Shown here: in pieces, positions 18,128 through 26,808 of the stretch
How positions within the stretch are numbered: the first letter of the stretch is position 1
Layout: each line of letters begins with the position of its first letter
DNA from: Roseibacillus ishigakijimensis
GTDB lineage: Bacteria; Verrucomicrobiota; Verrucomicrobiia; Verrucomicrobiales; Akkermansiaceae
DNA length: 64,000 bases
Assembly: GCF_016595415.1 (NCBI RefSeq)
Contig: NZ_JAENIO010000004.1
Location: forward strand, 62,001-126,000
Direction of reading: 5' to 3'
Program-made: the position numbers and the translations under genes
The notes under the pieces: generated by a model
Databases searched by the model: none
Told to the model about the DNA's origin: nothing
The model's input: the letters and a program-made list of their open reading frames with translations, nothing else

Positions 18128-19852
18128 TCACCGCCCCTCCCGGAGCTTTTTGCGAACCCAGTCGGAGGTGAGGTCGCCGGCGAAGACGAGACTGGCACCG
18201 AGGAGGACCCAAAGGAGCATCTCGTCGTAGTAAAAGCGCACCCCGGCCTCGGTGATGAGGAAGCCCAGAGAGCCTACCCCGAGCATCCCCAGGACGGTGG
18301 CCTCGCGAATGCAGGTCTCCCAACGATAGAAGAGATAGAGAACGAGGCGGTTGAAATTGGCTGGCAAGAGAGCGCCGAGATAGGCACTGGAGCGGGTGCC
18401 CCCTTGCAAGAGGATGACCTCTGCGGCGCGGCTGGGGGCATTGTCGAGGACCTCGGCGCCAAGACGGAGCAAGATGCCGCCATTGTGAATGGCAAGGGCC
18501 AAAATGAGGGCCCAGACGGTAGGGCCAAAGACTTGCAAGAGGAGAAAGGCGAGGATGAATTCGGGCAAAGACCGGGCGAGCATGGCCACCCCCCGCAGCA
18601 GTTGTCCCAAGTAACGACGGGTCACCTTCCCCCCCAAACAAACGCCGCGGGGACAGGCCCGAGCCAAGCTGCGGGTGCCCCAAATCATGCCCACGAGAGC
18701 TGCCGCCCCGGCGAGAAGGGCCGCGGTCGTGCCCACATGAAGGGTGCGCCAGAGGGCATCGAGCCCTTCCCAAATCAAGAGCTCGTGAAGCCATTGACCC
18801 AGGGTGTCCCCTTGCTGGCCCGCGCGGAGGGGATAAGGAATGAGCTCTTGTCCGAATCGTTGCAGATTCTGCCAACGCCGCTCCAAGCTCACCCCAGAGG
18901 TCCAGTCGGACTCCAGCAGCCAGGCCGCGAGGGTAAGGACAACGGCCCCGCCGGTCGCGGCCCGCACGAAGCGACTGCGGGGGCGCGCCCGCCAGAGGTC
19001 GGAGAGGCTGGCCCCGGGACCGGGAGACCGCCGCGCGGGCACGCCTTTGGCGAGGAGAGCACGCAGACGGGTGCCACTCCATTCGAAGAAAATGACCACT
19101 GCCAGCAAGGCGTAAAGATAGCTCCAGATTTCGCGATAATGGCCATCCTCGTAGGCGGTGGAGAGATGGTAGCCAATGGTGGGAATGCCCACGAAGCCCA
19201 GCACGGCGGAGGAGCGCACGGCGCACTCGAGACGATAGAGGGCGTAGGTGACGAGGTCAGGCAGGGCGCGGACGGCGGCTCCGGCCAGAAAGGAAGCGAA
19301 ACCACCGCCACCGATGGCGCGCAAAGTTTCGGTGGCAGAAGCGTCGGCCTCATCGAGCAGCTCGGAAAAGACTTTGGCCAAAGTTCCCCCATAAGGAAGG
19401 GCCAAGGCAAGCACGGCGGCGAGAGGCGAAGTCCCCACTGCGGAGATGAAGAGCAGGGCCCACATCAGCTCGTGCACGGAACGCAGGGCGGTGGCGGCGA
19501 GACGCGAAAAGCGGCGCAGGGCTTCCAAAGGGCGGGAAGGCCGACTCCACCAGCGACGCGCCCCGAGGATGCCCCCCACGATGCCGATCACCAAGGCCAG
19601 ACTCATCGCCACGGCGGCATAGCGCACGGTGAGCCAAAGAGCGGTGAGCACTTTTTGCCAAAAGGGCAGATCACCCCTGCGGGCATCCGGGGATTGGTAA
19701 TCCAGAGCCGGCTGAAAGGCCGCTTGGAAGAAATCGAGGGCCACCCGGCGGCCGTTCTCGGAGGGCAGCAGATCGCAAGGGTGGGCCCCGAGAATCCACA
19801 GACCAGCCAGAAAGAGGAGCAGGCCGCTGAGGAGAAACCACCGCCGTTTCAT
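18128..19852 (-). CDS. Double-domain ABC permease (PhnE-type, phosphonate/selenate importer)
   Basis: The 574-residue protein is two PhnE-like permease halves fused head to tail. Each has about six membrane segments and an ABC coupling (EAA-like) loop: ETLRAIGGGGFASFLAGAA near residue 180, and a second at VILLQGGTRSSAYLGALLP near 470. Each is followed by the family motif R-x-E-x-x-x-R-x-x-x-V/A-L-G (YRLECAVRSSAVLG, YRWETCIREATVLG). A fused pair can replace the usual homodimer. Its ATG overlaps the ATPase stop by four bases (ATGA), so it is translationally coupled. Substrate: see the binding protein. Confidence 0.88.
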   Translation of the reverse strand: MKRRWFLLSGLLLFLAGLWILGAHPCDLLPSENGRRVALDFFQAAFQPALDYQSPDARRGDLPFWQKVLTALWLTVRYAAVAMSLALVIGIVGGILGARRWWSRPSRPLEALRRFSRLAATALRSVHELMWALLFISAVGTSPLAAVLALALPYGGTLAKVFSELLDEADASATETLRAIGGGGFASFLAGAAVRALPDLVTYALYRLECAVRSSAVLGFVGIPTIGYHLSTAYEDGHYREIWSYLYALLAVVIFFEWSGTRLRALLAKGVPARRSPGPGASLSDLWRARPRSRFVRAATGGAVVLTLAAWLLESDWTSGVSLERRWQNLQRFGQELIPYPLRAGQQGDTLGQWLHELLIWEGLDALWRTLHVGTTAALLAGAAALVGMIWGTRSLARACPRGVCLGGKVTRRYLGQLLRGVAMLARSLPEFILAFLLLQVFGPTVWALILALAIHNGGILLRLGAEVLDNAPSRAAEVILLQGGTRSSAYLGALLPANFNRLVLYLFYRWETCIREATVLGMLGVGSLGFLITEAGVRFYYDEMLLWVLLGASLVFAGDLTSDWVRKKLREGR

Positions 19853-20601
19853 GAGGCCGGATTATCGTGGTCGTCCAGGCGATAGAGTTGGTTCACCAGC
19901 CCCTCTTCGGCTTCGCCATCGAAGACCACCCGGCCCGCCCGCAGGCCGATGATGCGGTCGAAGTAGCGTCGGGCCAGAGCAACATCGTGCAAGCTGGCGA
20001 CAAGGGTCAGGTCTTCTTCCCGGGCCACGGCGGTGAGCAACTCAATGAGGTCGCGCGCGCGCTCGGGATCGATGGCGCTCACAGGCTCGTCAGCGAGAAT
20101 AGCACTAGGCTGTTGAAAAAGAGCCCGCGCCACGGCGACCCGTTGCTGTTGTCCCCCGGAAAGCTGATCGACACGCTGATAGAGCTTTTCCCCGATACCC
20201 AGTCGCTCGAGAAGGTGATGAATGGCCTCTCGCTCGCTTTTTTTCATGAACAAAAAGCTGCGCAACAGGCCCCAGGGGCCTTTCTCCGCCACCCGCCCGC
20301 AGGCTACATTCTGATTAACCCGCAGATTGGGCACCAGGCCGAGGTCCTGCGGGACCCAGGCCAATCGCGAGCGCACTTGCCGCAGACCTTTGGCTCCCAA
20401 TTGAGCCAAGTCACGGCCATTGGCCCGCACCTGGCCCGCACTGGGGAGGAAGCGGCCATTGAGAAGGCCGAGGAGACTGGTCTTGCCCGCTCCGCTGGGA
20501 CCGATGAGGCACACCTGCTCGCCTTCCGCGATCCTCAGATCGGTGGGGTGGAGAGCAGGTAAATCCCCGTAACGAAGGGTCGCTTGACGGAGCTCAAACA
20601 T
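19849..20601 (-). CDS. ABC transporter ATPase (PhnC-type)
   Basis: The 250-residue ATPase has Walker A GPSGAGKT at 34-41, signature LSGGQQQRV at 147-155, Walker B with Asp171-Glu172 (ILADEP) and a His switch (ASLHDVAL). It powers the fused permease. The ATG follows directly after a strong hairpin and T run, and the only ribosome-binding-like sequence (AGGAG) lies inside the hairpin's 3' arm. Its expression is therefore probably lower than, or separately controlled from, the binding protein. Similarity to PhnC places it in the phosphonate/phosphite/selenate import group. Confidence 0.92.
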   Translation of the reverse strand: MFELRQATLRYGDLPALHPTDLRIAEGEQVCLIGPSGAGKTSLLGLLNGRFLPSAGQVRANGRDLAQLGAKGLRQVRSRLAWVPQDLGLVPNLRVNQNVACGRVAEKGPWGLLRSFLFMKKSEREAIHHLLERLGIGEKLYQRVDQLSGGQQQRVAVARALFQQPSAILADEPVSAIDPERARDLIELLTAVAREEDLTLVASLHDVALARRYFDRIIGLRAGRVVFDGEAEEGLVNQLYRLDDHDNPAS

Positions 20602-20672: not shown

Positions 20673-21575
20673 CTAGCGCAGCAGGTCGAGCTCTTTGGCG
20701 ACCTTCACAATGCCGGCGAAATCTTCGTTCTTGGCGGGAATGAGGTCATCCCGGTTGAAAGCCTTCAGCACCTCCTTGTCGTCGCAGTCGACGAGCACGG
20801 TCTGCAGTTTGTCGATGAAGCCATCCCCAAACAGGTCCTCGAGGTCGGGATGCACCGTGAGGTTGTAATCCGCGTATTGGGGAGTCACCCAGATGACCGG
20901 GGCATCCTCGGCACTGATGTCGCCATCGGCCACCATGGACTCATATTTCTTATAGCTCAGGGCGCCGACTTGGACCGAGCCGCTGGCCACCGCCCGGGCC
21001 GTGGCATCGTGGCTCCCCTTGGTCTGAAACTGCACTGGCTGAGTGAAAAAGTCCTCGGGGGCCTGTCCGGTTTCCTCCTGAATGAAGTAGGTGGGCATGA
21101 GACGACCCGAGGTGGAGCTGGGACTGCCGAAGGTGAAGGTGAGGTCCTTGATGGCCTCGCCAGGAAAGCTCTCACTCTTGCTCAAGCCCGTGGACTTGTG
21201 CGCGATGAAGTAGCTGACATATTCCGGGTCCACATCGCCCTGGGCAATGGCCCGAGCACCTGGCACGGCCTCGCGGGCCTGCACTCCGGTGAGCCCGCCG
21301 AACCAGACGAGGTGCACTTCGCCATTCTTAAAGCGCTGCACCGCCGCCGGGTAGTCCGCCGAAATGGAGAATTCGACGTCGATGTCGAGTTCCTCGGCCA
21401 GATAATCCTGCAAAGCGGCGAAGTTGGCCTCCTGGTCAGAGACTTTTTCGTCCGGAATGGCGGTGATCACGAGAGTGCCGCCAGCGGGCTCGCCCGCTTG
21501 GTCAGAAGAAGAGTATTTACAGCTGGAAAGAGCGGCGAGGCTGCCCACCGCGGCGAGTTTAAGGATGGTTTTCAT
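20673..21575 (-). CDS. Phosphonate/selenate-type ABC binding lipoprotein
   Basis: A 300-residue lipoprotein (MKTILKLAAVGSLAALSSC, Cys19 lipidated) of the PhnD superfamily. Diagnostic strings are VITAIPDEKV, AAVQRFKNGEVHLVWFGG, FGSPSSTSGRLMPTYFI, SHDATARAVASGSVQVGAL and TPQYADYNLTV. The TPxYxDYNxTV element and the SSTSGxLMPxYF block are, as I recall, typical of the subgroup annotated as putative selenate binding proteins rather than classic phosphonate PhnD. That attribution is from memory and moderate. I start at the ATG at 21575 because the lipoprotein signal begins there; upstream in-frame codons run through leader hairpins. First gene of the three-gene importer operon. Confidence 0.88.
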   Translation of the reverse strand: MKTILKLAAVGSLAALSSCKYSSSDQAGEPAGGTLVITAIPDEKVSDQEANFAALQDYLAEELDIDVEFSISADYPAAVQRFKNGEVHLVWFGGLTGVQAREAVPGARAIAQGDVDPEYVSYFIAHKSTGLSKSESFPGEAIKDLTFTFGSPSSTSGRLMPTYFIQEETGQAPEDFFTQPVQFQTKGSHDATARAVASGSVQVGALSYKKYESMVADGDISAEDAPVIWVTPQYADYNLTVHPDLEDLFGDGFIDKLQTVLVDCDDKEVLKAFNRDDLIPAKNEDFAGIVKVAKELDLLR

Positions 21576-21635: not shown

Positions 21636-21717
21636 AAAAAAACCGTCGACACGAAGGCCCAAAGCCCCGGTCAGACGGTTTGTCTGCAGCTTGTTGCTGG
21701 ATGTGGACCCACATCCA
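21636..21717 (-). promoter_or_regulatory. Leader with terminator and alternative hairpin before the importer operon
   Basis: Read on the minus strand, the 240-base gap before the binding-protein gene contains three structures. First is a hairpin with 8-9-bp arms (GGATGTGG / CCACATCC, 21717-21698). Next is a small hairpin CAGAC-AAACC-GTCTG (21686-21672). Then comes an intrinsic terminator, AACCGTC pairing with GACGGTT, followed by seven T (to 21636). The small hairpin uses the same bases as the terminator's 5' arm, so the two cannot form together. This resembles a transcription attenuator or riboswitch platform. A simpler reading is that it only terminates the upstream HAD gene. Confidence 0.6.
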
Positions 21718-21815
21718 TGAACCGGTTTTCGTCGTTTCACCCTCATCGCGTTCAAGAAGGACTAAACACTCCGCCTCTCGCTACCGAAAGAAAAAAGTTA
21801 AAAATGAGTCGCGCG

Positions 21816-22550
21816 CTAGGGACGATACAGCCCCAGCATCATGAGGAGAAGAGCAAAGGCGAACTCGCGGCGGTCTCCCCAGGGCTTGGCCGGAGTGAGG
21901 ACTCGCCAGCCTTCGTCCGCCGCTTTTTGCGCGAAAAGGCCCTCAGGATGGATAGCGGTCACCTTTTCACACAGCGCCAGCATGGGCAGGTCGGCTTTGC
22001 TGTCGGAGTAACCTTCACTGGCGGGAAGCACGCCCTGCAGGCCCAGCTCGTCCTGCAAACGAACGACCTTGTTCGCTCCTTTGTTGTTTCCCAGGGGGAA
22101 AGGAGGAAACCAGCGCAACCTTTCCTCCACCTCCACGACCGTGCCAAAGGTGTGATCGAAACCCAGCGCCTCGCCAATGGGGCAGACGTAGAGCTCCGGA
22201 CTGGCGGAGACGAGGACGAGAGTGTCTCCGGCCGCGCGATGGCGCTCAATCTCCGCCACCACCTCGGGATAAGGAAGATCGCGCACCACTTCAGCAGCAA
22301 AGATTCGCCCCCAGGCCGAGAGTTTGTCCCCGGGAAGACGCCAGGCAAAGCCCATAAAAACACGCTTCATGGTCTGGGACCCCAGCACTTTCGCCAGCGG
22401 GAGAAGGAGGAAAAAAGGTAGCAAGAGGATGCGGCGCCATCCCTCGCGACGCAGCACGAAGTTGCAGAAAAGAACCTGCAGATCCCAAGGAACAATGGTT
22501 TGGTCGAGGTCGAAAAGGGCCCAGCCCTTGGCATGTGGTGGTTTGCTCAC
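21816..22550 (-). CDS. HAD-family (IB subclass, SerB-like) phosphatase
   Basis: A 244-residue protein with the HAD motifs in order: DLDQT (nucleophile Asp14, general acid Asp16), VSASPE (motif II) and GYSDSKADLPML (motif IV; Tyr replaces the usual second Gly position). The cap arrangement and length match the SerB-like IB group, which includes small-molecule phosphatases such as phosphoserine or lipid-related phosphatases. The hydrophobic stretch RRILLLPFFLLLPLAKVLG (about residues 38-56) suggests membrane association. Substrate unknown. It precedes the importer operon on the same strand but is separated by the structured leader. Confidence 0.85.
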   Translation of the reverse strand: MSKPPHAKGWALFDLDQTIVPWDLQVLFCNFVLRREGWRRILLLPFFLLLPLAKVLGSQTMKRVFMGFAWRLPGDKLSAWGRIFAAEVVRDLPYPEVVAEIERHRAAGDTLVLVSASPELYVCPIGEALGFDHTFGTVVEVEERLRWFPPFPLGNNKGANKVVRLQDELGLQGVLPASEGYSDSKADLPMLALCEKVTAIHPEGLFAQKAADEGWRVLTPAKPWGDRREFAFALLLMMLGLYRP

Positions 22551-23069: not shown

Positions 23070-23164
23070 CACAACCACCAGCTAAGCATCTGGCACCCAA
23101 GCGCTGGGGAAGTTTTCTTTTCCAAGGACCCCAATTGCCCCTAGAGTGCGCCCACTGCCGCGAC

Positions 23165-24325
23165 ATGAAGTGCCTTTCCCTCCCCCTCGCTTTCCTGACC
23201 GCTCTCCCCAGCCAAGCTCAAATTTTCGCCGATTTCGAGACTTCTCTGGGCGACTTTTCGGTCGTGCTGGATTACGAGAATGCCCCCCTCACCGCAGCCA
23301 ATTTCATCCTACTGGCCGAGGGCTCCCGGCCTTGGATCGACTCCACCACCGGCGTGGTGTGGAGCAACACGCCCTACTACGACGGCATCATCTTTCATCG
23401 CGTCATCGATGGCTTCATGATTCAGGGCGGCTCGCCCAATGGACAGGGCACGGATGGTCCCGGTTACCGCTTTCCGGATGAAACCGACAATGGGCTCACT
23501 TTTGACCGGCCCTTCCTGCTGGCTATGGCCAACTCCGGCCCGAACACCAATGGCTCGCAGTTTTTCATCACCGAGCAAACTCCGAATTGGCTCAACGGCG
23601 ATCACACCATCTTCGGCGAGGTCGCAAGCGGAACCGCCACCATCCACGCCATTTTGGAAACGGCGACCGATGGCGATGATCGCCCCACCACCCCGGTCGT
23701 CATCGAGTCGGTGAGCATCCACCGGCAGGGCACGGCCGCCGAGTCCTTTGACGAAACAGCGCAAGGAGTGCCCCGGGTGACGGCCCTCGCGCCCCCCTTC
23801 ACTGCCGAGGCCAGCGCCCTCCGGGTGGAACAACCGGCAAACAGTATTTTGCAAGTCGCGAGCAGCCCCGACCTGCAGGAATGGAGCACCAGCGAACGCT
23901 TTCGCGATGGCGAGAGCGGTGGGGAGGAGCTCTTCCCCACCAGTGGCGAACCCCGCGCCTTCTTCCGCACCACCCTCATCGAGCACCCTTACACCCTACC
24001 CCAAAGCTACTTGGGCCGCACCCTGACCTTCGAGCTCGAGGACGAAGGAAGCACCACCCTCGTCGTGCAGCTGAATGCAGCCGATGCCACCATCGGCGAT
24101 GAGGGCACCCTCACGATTGGCGAGGGGTCCTCTCCCATCACCGAGGTCTGGGAAGAGTTCGCCACGCCCTACACCGCCTCGCTGGTGATCTTTTCGGAGA
24201 ACTACGTCCCCTTCCGCTTCGAACTGGCCTCGGACTCCGCCACCCACGGACGGATGGATGGCACCGCATTCTTCGACGACGGCGCTCAACCCATTTTCGG
24301 CACATTTTCCCTCACCACTCCATGA
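23165..24325 (+). CDS. Secreted cyclophilin-type peptidyl-prolyl isomerase with C-terminal extension
   Basis: A 386-residue protein with a signal peptide (MKCLSLPLAFLTALPSQAQ). Residues about 20-190 are a cyclophilin domain that accelerates prolyl cis-trans isomerisation: FETSLGDFSVVLDYENAP, the active-site FHRVIDGFMIQGG, MANSGPNTNGSQFFIT and HTIFGEV. All expected active-site residues (Arg, Gln, Phe) are visible. The remaining ~190 residues are beta-rich with 'LQVASSPDLQEW' and 'RAFFRTT', a C-terminal style shared with other secreted proteins here. The ATG at 23165 is chosen because the signal peptide starts there. The stop overlaps the next start (ATGA). Confidence 0.92.
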   Translation: MKCLSLPLAFLTALPSQAQIFADFETSLGDFSVVLDYENAPLTAANFILLAEGSRPWIDSTTGVVWSNTPYYDGIIFHRVIDGFMIQGGSPNGQGTDGPGYRFPDETDNGLTFDRPFLLAMANSGPNTNGSQFFITEQTPNWLNGDHTIFGEVASGTATIHAILETATDGDDRPTTPVVIESVSIHRQGTAAESFDETAQGVPRVTALAPPFTAEASALRVEQPANSILQVASSPDLQEWSTSERFRDGESGGEELFPTSGEPRAFFRTTLIEHPYTLPQSYLGRTLTFELEDEGSTTLVVQLNAADATIGDEGTLTIGEGSSPITEVWEEFATPYTASLVIFSENYVPFRFELASDSATHGRMDGTAFFDDGAQPIFGTFSLTTP

Positions 24326-26025
24326 AGTCTCTCCTTCTCGCCTTTCTCGCCAGCACGGCCAGCGTCTTTGCCCAAGGCATCTACGCCATCGTGGACGTCG
24401 AATTCACTAACGACGCCCCACCCAACGACTACCAGTTCGTGATCGAACTCGATTACCAGCACGCCCCCCGCAATGTAGGCCTCTTCATGCTCTTGGCCGA
24501 GACCGAAACCCGCCACTTCCGCAGCAAGCTGGCCACCACGGTCAACAACCCCCACGGCGAATACGTGCCTGCCGATGCCAATGGCACCCTCCTGCCGGGA
24601 GGAACGGCCTACACCATCGTCGCGGCCAACTCTTCCGCCAACCCTCCGAGTGCGACCCTCTTCCTCAGCGCCACCAGTTCCAAGATGGCCACCTTCACAA
24701 ACAACAATGGCACCTGGACCTCCGACAATCCCTATGTGAGCCTCTTCTACAACGGCTCCACCATGGTGCGGCGCTTCATGATCAAGGAGGATCCCAAGCT
24801 CTCCTACCTCGATGAAGTCACCGGAGAGGTCACCAGCGGACCCTTCTACGACAACGAGGACATCCTCCGTATCACTGGCGAACATCCTTACCTTTCCCTC
24901 GGCAAAAAGACCTTCGGCACCAACAACTCACCCGGCTGGTCAATGCAGAACGAGATGATCGACCAGTTCCACAACGACTTCAACGACTCCGCCGGCCCCT
25001 GGGGAGATCGCTTTTCCAATGCCGCTGGGATAGTAGGGCCGAGCCAACAATTTGCGGTGGCTTTGGCCAATCGCAGCCTGCTGGAGCCCAATACCGCTGG
25101 CGCGGAAATTCTCATCACCGGCGTCGCAGGCAACCCGGACTTTCGCGGTCGCCATACCCACATCGGTCGAGTCGTCTCTGGCCCCTACACCGGCAATACC
25201 AATCCCAGCACCTACGTGCCCAGTAGTCGCGCGGTGGTTCAGACCATCATCAATGGCGAGCCCGCCAAAATCAACTCGATCACTTTTGAGAATCAGAACG
25301 TCTCCAACTTCCACCCCATTGCGTTGCTGGGAGAAAACGACGACAACATCTCCCTCCCCACCATCAGCTTGAGCACGAGCCGCGCCGAGCTCGATTTCTC
25401 CCCCCTCACCGGGCCCCGGGTGCTCACGGGGGCCCAGCCCGGCGAAATCCGCTACCTCGATGCGTCCACCGATCTCGAAAGCTGGAACCGGGTTGGTCAG
25501 AGCAGTTATCCCATCGACGGCTCCGCCGAGAGTGGGTTCGATCTCACCCCGACCCTCGCAGCCAACCAACGCGGCTTCTTCCGCACCAGCGCCACAGTGA
25601 GCACCTACCCCGACTGGCCCGCCGAGGAGTTCGCGGAAGGCTTTCCTAATGCCTTTTTCAAATTCAAAGGACGGGAAAACGAGGAAGGCACGGCCTCGCA
25701 AGTGCTGAACATCTTCAATCTTTACCTGAATGCGGCGGGCACGGCGGGAATCCTCGCTGGTCTCGGGGGCGACCTGCAGGGCGAGTACTCCATCGATAGT
25801 GTGGACTACCAGGCAAGCGGCCCCTTCCGGGGAAATCTCACCCTCGATGGCCCGAATCTGCCGGAACCTCTCCGGCTGCGCCTCTACTTCGACTCCCACC
25901 GTACGGGTGAGATCAATTCCGGCCAGCCCCTCATCAACCGCTTCCACCGCCTCGTCACCCGCGAGGTCAATGGTTTCCCCTTTGAGCAAGCGGCCGAGTT
26001 CGGCATCTGGGTGCAGGAACGCTAG
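24322..26025 (+). CDS. Secreted degenerate cyclophilin-like protein
   Basis: A 567-residue secreted protein (signal MKSLLLAFLASTASVFAQG) whose outline follows its upstream neighbour. VIELDYQHAPRNVGLFMLLAE aligns with the neighbour's LDYENAPLTAANFILLAEG, MVRRFMIKED falls where FHRVIDGFMIQGG should be, and FAVALANRSLLEPNTAGAEILIT matches FLLAMANSGPNTNGSQFFIT. The FHRV motif and QFF are lost and there is a ~60-residue insertion, so isomerase activity is doubtful. The C-terminal half again has a 'EIRYLDASTDLESWNRV...GFFRTS' tail. Translationally coupled to the active-looking cyclophilin. I read it as a diverged paralogue; that is inference. Confidence 0.7.
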   Translation: MKSLLLAFLASTASVFAQGIYAIVDVEFTNDAPPNDYQFVIELDYQHAPRNVGLFMLLAETETRHFRSKLATTVNNPHGEYVPADANGTLLPGGTAYTIVAANSSANPPSATLFLSATSSKMATFTNNNGTWTSDNPYVSLFYNGSTMVRRFMIKEDPKLSYLDEVTGEVTSGPFYDNEDILRITGEHPYLSLGKKTFGTNNSPGWSMQNEMIDQFHNDFNDSAGPWGDRFSNAAGIVGPSQQFAVALANRSLLEPNTAGAEILITGVAGNPDFRGRHTHIGRVVSGPYTGNTNPSTYVPSSRAVVQTIINGEPAKINSITFENQNVSNFHPIALLGENDDNISLPTISLSTSRAELDFSPLTGPRVLTGAQPGEIRYLDASTDLESWNRVGQSSYPIDGSAESGFDLTPTLAANQRGFFRTSATVSTYPDWPAEEFAEGFPNAFFKFKGRENEEGTASQVLNIFNLYLNAAGTAGILAGLGGDLQGEYSIDSVDYQASGPFRGNLTLDGPNLPEPLRLRLYFDSHRTGEINSGQPLINRFHRLVTREVNGFPFEQAAEFGIWVQER

Positions 26026-26034
26026 CAGCCCCGT

Positions 26035-26808
26035 TCACGAGAGCCGCTCCCCGCCCGCATAAACATTGAAAGTGGGCGGGCGGAGGAACCCGATGAGCGT
26101 TTGGCCACTCTCGCGGGCGAACTCCACTGCCAAGGAAGAGGGTGCGGAAATGGCGGCGACCACGGGAATCCCTGCGGCGAGGGCCTTTTGCATCACCTCA
26201 AAGGAAACCCGCCCCGAGACCTGGAGGACAGTCTCAGCCAAAGCAACCCCCTCGTCCGCTGCCCAACCAATGACCTTGTCGATGGCATTGTGACGGCCGA
26301 CATCCTCCCGCAAGACCAGCAACTGGCCCTCCCCATCAAAAAGCCCGGCGGCGTGAATGCCCCCCGTGCGCGCAAAGGCTTGCTGGGCGGCGCGGAGTTT
26401 GTCCGGAAAGGTCAGCAAGGCCGTGCGCGCCAACTGAAATCCCTCCCCCACGGGCTCATGATGCTGCCGAATCGACTCAATGCTGGCCTTGCCGCAAATC
26501 CCACAGGAAGACGCACTGAAGAGATGGCGACTGAGCTTGGCCCGGTCGAATTCCACACCATCGGCGAGAAAGACAAGGGCATGATTCTCCTTCTGCTCGA
26601 GATCGATGCGAGCGACTTCCGCCAGAGAGTCCACAAAGCCCTCGGTGAGGAGAAAGCCCGCCACCAGGTCGGCATCATGGCCTGGCGTGCGCATCACCAC
26701 CGCCACCGGAAAGCCGTCGACCGTGATTTGCAGAGGTTCCTCCACCGCCAGCTCATCCTCGACGATTTCACTTCCCTCCCGCCCCTCTCGCGCAATGGCA
26801 AACTTCAT
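26035..26808 (-). CDS. fdhD: Formate dehydrogenase accessory sulfurtransferase FdhD
   Basis: FdhD passes sulfur from a cysteine desulfurase to the molybdenum cofactor of formate dehydrogenase. The 257-residue product has the sulfur-carrying pair in SSCGICGK (Cys102, Cys105), DVGRHNAIDKVIG near 165 and VSGRVSFEVMQKA near 195, all hallmarks of the family. The start ATG at 26808 lies about 40 bases after the terminator of the upstream MFS gene, so it is likely a separate transcript. No formate dehydrogenase gene is in the window, so the client enzyme is elsewhere. Confidence 0.93.
   Translation of the reverse strand: MKFAIAREGREGSEIVEDELAVEEPLQITVDGFPVAVVMRTPGHDADLVAGFLLTEGFVDSLAEVARIDLEQKENHALVFLADGVEFDRAKLSRHLFSASSCGICGKASIESIRQHHEPVGEGFQLARTALLTFPDKLRAAQQAFARTGGIHAAGLFDGEGQLLVLREDVGRHNAIDKVIGWAADEGVALAETVLQVSGRVSFEVMQKALAAGIPVVAAISAPSSLAVEFARESGQTLIGFLRPPTFNVYAGGERLS

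Follow-up and report, generated by a model that had tools for sequence, protein, structure and literature searches.

Attenuators of the trp leader-peptide type consist of a short translated open reading frame (ORF) that overlaps an intrinsic terminator, and their outcome depends on the ribosome. In Escherichia coli, Thanbichler and Boeck reportedly described in 2002 an autoregulation of SelB that acts via a SECIS-like element of selAB. Autoregulation of E. coli SelB is also cited in PMC8124441. As for the supply of selenium itself, a 2026 review states that a specific high-affinity selenium transport system has not been identified in prokaryotes (PMC13188914), and a 2024 study reports that an attempt to pin down an archaeal selenium transporter was unsuccessful (PMC11097638).

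The leader described here lies before a putative selenium importer and resembles each of several known systems in part. As in the E. coli selAB element, there is a SECIS-like hairpin without selenocysteine (Sec) insertion and a proposed repression of a selenium gene by SelB with Sec-tRNA, but in this case uptake genes would be the targets, a translated ORF holds the hairpin just past its AUG, an intrinsic terminator brings in transcriptional control and the host is a verrucomicrobium. With trp-type attenuators it shares a short translated ORF over an intrinsic terminator and an outcome that would hinge on the ribosome; unlike them, it has no run of codons for a sensed amino acid, its signal would be a protein-bound hairpin within the ORF, and a conserved antiterminator was not found among 33 leaders. 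The Moco/tungsten cofactor riboswitch (PMC2408646) is likewise a conserved RNA ahead of an oxyanion importer, but it has a complex aptamer fold, whereas the present leader is without an Rfam match. Among the papers listed in literature searches, none was seen to describe such an element. We propose, at even chances, that this translated attenuator controls the selenium uptake genes of Akkermansiaceae, with SelB–Sec-tRNA reading the hairpin, P1, and the terminator stopping transcription.

The leader and the importer genes (Table 1) are encoded on the minus strand of the window, the 64,000-nucleotide stretch of Roseibacillus ishigakijimensis DNA that was analysed. The gene directly downstream of the leader exceeds the curated TIGR04553 cut-off; TIGR04553 is itself a hypothetical equivalog, and selenium is its putative substrate. 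The permease has two PhnE-like halves in a single protein of 574 aa. Near the importer, an ORF at 26035-26808 (minus strand) was recognised by reading its translation as FdhD-like (formate dehydrogenase accessory protein); formate dehydrogenase is a selenoprotein in 6 of 12 related genomes (see below).

Table 1. Features of the leader and the neighbouring genes in the window
Feature	Positions	Strand	Evidence or remark
Whole element: leader ORF start, hairpin P1, linker, intrinsic terminator	21636..21746	-	R1 covariance match 92.5 bits (the window copy is one of the six sequences used to build R1)
Leader ORF start codon ATG, conserved	21744..21746	-	ORF reads MRVKRRKPVHGCGSTSSNKLQTNRLTG..., open in frame into the binding protein here
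Hairpin P1, SECIS-like, 7 conserved pairs	21699..21716	-	Eighth pair 21717-21698 in the window
P1 GGUC tetraloop, invariant; proposed SelB contact	21706..21709	-	GGTC in 33/33 copies
Small hairpin CAGAC-AAACC-GTCTG, overlapping the terminator 5' arm	21672..21686	-	Folds in truncated RNA
Intrinsic terminator, seven T, within the leader ORF	21636..21681	-	AAACCGTC...GACGGTTTTTTT, -20.7 kcal/mol
TIGR04553 putative selenate ABC transporter substrate-binding protein (lipoprotein)	20673..21575	-	NCBIfam TIGR04553, 279.5 bits vs cut-off 250
ABC transporter ATP-binding protein, PhnC-like	19849..20601	-	TIGR02315 E 3.6e-67, below its cut-off; PF00005
ABC transporter permease, PhnE-like, two permease regions in one protein	18128..19852	-	TIGR01097 over cut-off; PF00528 in two stretches
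Upstream HAD-IB hydrolase	21816..22550	-	PF12710; TIGR01488 over cut-off

A sequence-only reading of this locus had placed a stable hairpin and a terminator with seven T on the minus strand, and both are there: the 82-nt stretch at 21636-21717 has a folding energy of -35.8 kcal/mol, where its shuffles average -23.6 (z -4.0), and none of 200 shuffles equals it. In the window P1 is a perfect 8-bp hairpin (TGGATGTG-GGTC-CACATCCA, minus strand). The element does occupy the span then assigned to it, but its true 5' end lies further out, with the AUG at 21746.

Homologues of the binding protein occur in 28 of 58 genomes (own genome included), and reading the DNA upstream of them revealed the leader in five besides the window. 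A covariance model built from these six leaders (R1) retrieved 33 copies in 27 of 260 Akkermansiaceae genomes, spread over 4 of 16 genera. Read by eye, 20 copies stand before a TIGR04553 binding-protein gene, and the other 13 either lie ahead of a porin gene or form its start. Of these porins, L084 matches Porin_O_P, and L083 (39% identical to L084 and 65% to L089) has no Pfam match, nor has L089. Across the 32 distinct leaders the structure is paired in 93.6% of cells, and P1 and the terminator together reach a covariation score of 0.542, compared with 0.250 for shuffled and at most 0.113 for slid alignments, so that the covariation among homologous leaders named earlier as a check is present. 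P1 is paired in 99.6% of cells, with changes on both sides in 5 of its 7 pairs, and the terminator stem shows such changes in 7 of 11. The 32-sequence alignment was fitted to the covariance model, which favours structure; a six-sequence MAFFT alignment built without structure gives the same picture. Each stem pair of P1 changes in at least one copy while its loop is GGUC in all 33, and all 33 have terminators, of -15.2 to -27.4 kcal/mol with T runs of 5-9. A conserved intrinsic terminator thus stands before the gene, as in an attenuator, and since the element recurs before importer and porin genes with covariation, it is well supported as a conserved cis-regulatory attenuator tied to the importer. 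In a sample of the phylum searched with model R2 under stricter filters, 4 of 387 genomes had a match, namely three of the window's genus and a marginal one (G425, E 0.005). The GGUC hairpin was found in none of eight alphaproteobacterial TIGR04553 plasmid loci (8 of 15 matches were examined). On Paracoccus marcusii plasmid pKGP2 (L211), which has no hairpin, TIGR04553 adjoins fdnG (formate dehydrogenase-N alpha), and this adjacency supports the selenium link in another phylum.

The same reading had set against the terminator a small, mutually exclusive hairpin that uses its 5' arm. This hairpin forms in the window when the RNA is folded as cut before the terminator 3' arm. Across leaders, however, a competing hairpin beat linker shuffles at below 0.05 in 5 of 33, the median fraction being 0.13; the window thus has the mutually exclusive pair, but its conservation is not demonstrated. 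The small hairpin as antiterminator is unsupported overall in this test on 33 leaders, and because it is no better than shuffles in most homologues, the mechanism proposed below does not rest on it. A pseudoknot between the P1 loop GGUC and a terminator GACC, which came from reading the alignment, was not adopted because its partners vary or are absent (e.g. L061, L074, L079) where the loop is constant. Rfam yielded no match at gathering score in the window or in 15 homologous loci, and permissive matches in the window were at chance level (best E 1); the earlier statement that no known riboswitch consensus fits therefore holds.

Conservation extends to a reading frame. L068 is cut at its 5' end, and in all 32 copies that have a start codon the leader ORF is open from the AUG to past P1. 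The start codon stands at the 5' end, in one frame to the loop, in 31 of these 32 (L064 departs). Counted from the first alignment column, 26 of the 32 have an AUG-to-loop distance of 31 nt, but the ATG of L077 comes six bases after that column, which makes its distance 25 nt. In 29 of the 32 copies no stop interrupts this frame up to and across the T run; of the two alternative frames, one is open that far in 1 copy and the other in 17, and the ORFs of L056, L058 and L064 end before the T run. In eight porin copies (L065, L067, L069, L074, L076, L077, L079 and L083) the ORF runs in frame into the porin, so that the terminator falls within the porin's first codons, in several cases within signal-peptide codons. 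Such nesting of codons, hairpin and terminator in one stretch is an unusual layout in its own right. In L083 (2664-3986, minus strand), L089 (3626-4966, plus strand) and L090, the element makes up the first codons of the porin, and the terminator is encoded in the signal peptide (RLTGA..TAFLWAG). We also considered whether the leader ORF truly extends the binding protein of the window at its N-terminus. The frame is open, yet this was judged incidental, because the ORF of the relative L056 stops at codon 21 and it is at 21575 that the lipoprotein signal begins. No in-frame UGA precedes P1, which rules out Sec insertion in the leader.

The GGUC hairpin also occurs inside genes that lack the leader. 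At 67 TIGR04553 loci, 64 of them from 63 of 254 family genomes and 3 from other families, we looked around the gene start for hairpins with stems of 6 bp or more. A GGTC loop was found at 35 of the 67, compared with 9 for the next commonest tetraloop and a median of 0 over the 256 loops. These 35 comprise 20 leaders, 14 hairpins within the binding-protein ORF of the sister genus g9, mostly 22 nt after its AUG, and a single g12 hairpin (G035). Genus g12 also has three loci whose loop is the pentaloop GGTCT, placed 27 nt past the AUG; in two of these the stem (GGTGCC/GGCATC) resembles the apex of the FdhA SECIS. A gapless alignment of 18 g9 copies shows changes on both sides in 8 of 8 pairs and scores 0.619, against at most 0.244 when slid. 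Two of the 18 depart, G271 with a GATC loop and G272 with one mismatch; the stems of G011 and G023 are interrupted by a mismatch, so that the unbroken part below the loop is four pairs long. The G271 copy (L192, 230-274, minus strand), the sole one in g9 with a GATC loop, keeps its stem intact and is a natural variant. As a control, GGTC hairpins were present at 0 of 244 ORF starts in selB, selD, tRNA-Sec and formate dehydrogenase loci. A wider regulon of GGUC hairpins was rejected for want of enrichment (selD loci 1, selB 0, tRNA-Sec 1, formate dehydrogenase 0). The scan found no hairpin at 29 of the 67 loci. At six of these a porin upstream carries the leader; it is missing from the remaining 23, among them all 11 of genus g10 and G224, where just 9 upstream bases were scanned.

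Work in E. coli established that a SECIS requires a bulged U on the 5' side of its stem, and P1, a continuous helix, has none. We compared P1 further with the rules for loop, stem, energy and UGA spacing given in PMC13188914. In all 33 copies the 4-nt loop and 7-bp stem lie within the ranges for the apical loop (3-9 nt) and upper stem (4-16 bp), and GGTC (33/33) places G in the first two loop positions, which are mostly G then G/U. An MFE of -7.5 kcal/mol or lower is reached by the 18-nt hairpin alone in 30 of 33 copies, L077, L079 and L085 being weaker. No in-frame UGA lies 16-37 nt before the loop in the 32 leader ORFs. Lacking both this UGA and the bulged U, P1 is SECIS-like and not a SECIS; what it has in common with bacterial SECIS elements as described there is a 7-bp stem and a small loop starting GGU, here a tetraloop rather than a pentaloop, at 22-40 nt from a codon occupied by the ribosome. 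In the importer hairpins the loop lies 22-36 nt from the AUG (40 nt in one), which agrees with the 16-37 nt that the bacterial SECIS model gives between UGA and loop (PMC13188914).

The loop of P1 has the same GGUC core as the native SECIS elements of FdhA and SelD, whose loops we read from genes with an in-frame UGA, and the minimal E. coli SECIS, ggttgcaggtctgcacc, also contains GGTC (PMC3834832). Sec-FdhA was present in 6 of 12 genomes searched, with a GGTCT loop in 6 of 6. Of 27 leader genomes searched, 24 gave a SelD match, and in 23 of these 24 the gene has an in-frame UGA; of 36 genomes searched in g9, g10, g12 and g14, 35 gave a match and 34 of these have the UGA. The two exceptions are partial matches. 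Positions 2-3 of the SelD SECIS loop are GU in 53 of 53 genes read (GGTCT in the window genome), a constancy that coding constraint (Val, Gly-Leu) may explain in part. The SelD UGA-to-loop distance is 32 nt in 44 of 53; in the remaining 9 the script picked another hairpin or none, and the loop letters are in the same place. Of the 260 family genomes 69 have SelB, which is present in 26 of the 27 leader genomes and in 43 of the 233 others (Fisher 3.7e-16, not phylogeny-corrected); the leader genome without a SelB match (G232) is 86% complete and has Sec-SelD. The SelB of the window genome aligns with E. coli SelB over its whole length. Since the binding protein itself tracks selenium use, co-occurrence with SelB is expected under any selenium-linked mechanism.

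The match between the P1 loop and that of selenocysteine-insertion signals suggests that the selenocysteine machinery reports selenium supply and shuts the importer. RNA polymerase would transcribe a short ORF from the conserved AUG, with P1 about 31-34 nt downstream and the intrinsic terminator after it, usually inside the same ORF. When selenium is plentiful, SelB-GTP-Sec-tRNA(Sec) would be abundant and would bind P1 as it does a SECIS, sitting at about the usual UGA distance, here from a ribosome initiating at the start codon. Early translation would be hindered, the uncovered terminator would fold and the importer would be switched off; when selenium is short, ribosomes would cross P1 and the 5' arm of the terminator and the importer would be made. 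Selenium sufficiency would thereby shut selenium uptake. Where the hairpin lies directly in the importer gene and there is no terminator, control would be translational only. While the conserved structure, loop, frame, terminator and gene context are observed, SelB as reader of P1 is a candidate to which we give roughly an even probability, and both the sign of the response and the contribution of the ribosome to antitermination are inferred. The broader reading, which we hold tentatively and at somewhat under even chances, is that SelB with Sec-tRNA serves as the cell's selenium sensor, acting through a UGA-less SECIS-like hairpin in the first codons of porin or binding-protein genes or in a terminator-bearing leader ORF, such that tRNA-Sec charging feeds back on import through both translation and transcription.

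Several observations count against SelB as the reader. All 11 g10 binding-protein genes lack the hairpin despite Sec-SelD; it is absent from the eight alphaproteobacterial homologues; in L056, L058 and L064 the leader ORF ends ahead of the T run; and P1 differs from native signals not only in lacking a UGA and a bulged U but in having a loop of 4 nt where those of SelD and FdhA have 5. A U two pairs below the loop (alignment column 44, pairing with A or G) is invariant and is not a known SECIS feature. The same attenuator might then be read by another protein or another RNA, with GGUC and the invariant U as its site, and that U and the missing bulge, both unlike native SECIS, speak for such a reader; we consider it unlikely, though a serious contender, because the loop core is that of the same organisms' SECIS, the genes are selenium-linked and no alternative factor came to light. 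A riboswitch that senses a small molecule such as selenate, selenite, selenide or a related anion would suit a conserved structure with a terminator ahead of an importer, but with Rfam silent in the window and the 15 homologous loci, the element translated, and one simple tetraloop hairpin in place of a conserved junction or pseudoknot, neither of which was found, its chances are slim. Sensing of the imported oxyanion or a derivative, as suggested earlier, loses ground for the same locus, where nothing like a ligand-binding aptamer was seen: because the element is translated and its sole invariant block is the GGUC tetraloop, the free oxyanion is a weaker candidate for reading P1 than a protein, of which SelB with Sec-tRNA is the likeliest.

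Sensing might be absent altogether, the hairpin just tuning initiation or signal-peptide synthesis and the terminator setting a constant partial readthrough. P1 is indeed always close after the AUG, and in g9 it lies in codons of the signal-peptide n-region, but such a role does not need an invariant loop on a changing stem, and with the GGTC hairpin absent from the 244 other ORF starts we regard it as improbable. That the conserved object is the N-terminal peptide (e.g. ERGSTF, DRSIS) and the hairpin a by-product is very improbable: the reading frame is kept in most copies, but residues shift with compensatory base changes (EGGSTF to EDGSIF, GDRSIS to SRSVS) while the loop codons remain xGG TCx. 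Least probable is what the sequence-only reading had offered as the plainer explanation, a terminator that merely ends the upstream HAD transcript, the importer having its own promoter downstream. The HAD gene, which shares the strand, does lie upstream, this terminator could serve its transcript as well, and about 60 bases separate the T run from the importer start codon; a promoter scan found no sigma-70-type promoter. Ending an upstream transcript does not, however, explain why the element, with its AUG and P1, is kept before and inside porin genes too, and recurs with covariation.

A selenocysteine-type RNA signal on the TIGR04553 importer and on a porin would be independent genetic evidence for selenium as the cargo, and the proposed arrangement would form a feedback circuit, open to direct testing, with a translation factor as the reporter of a trace element. 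Elsewhere in the window, 23135-26025 (plus strand) encodes two adjacent proteins that, from their translations, resemble cyclophilin-type peptidyl-prolyl isomerases with extra C-terminal regions.
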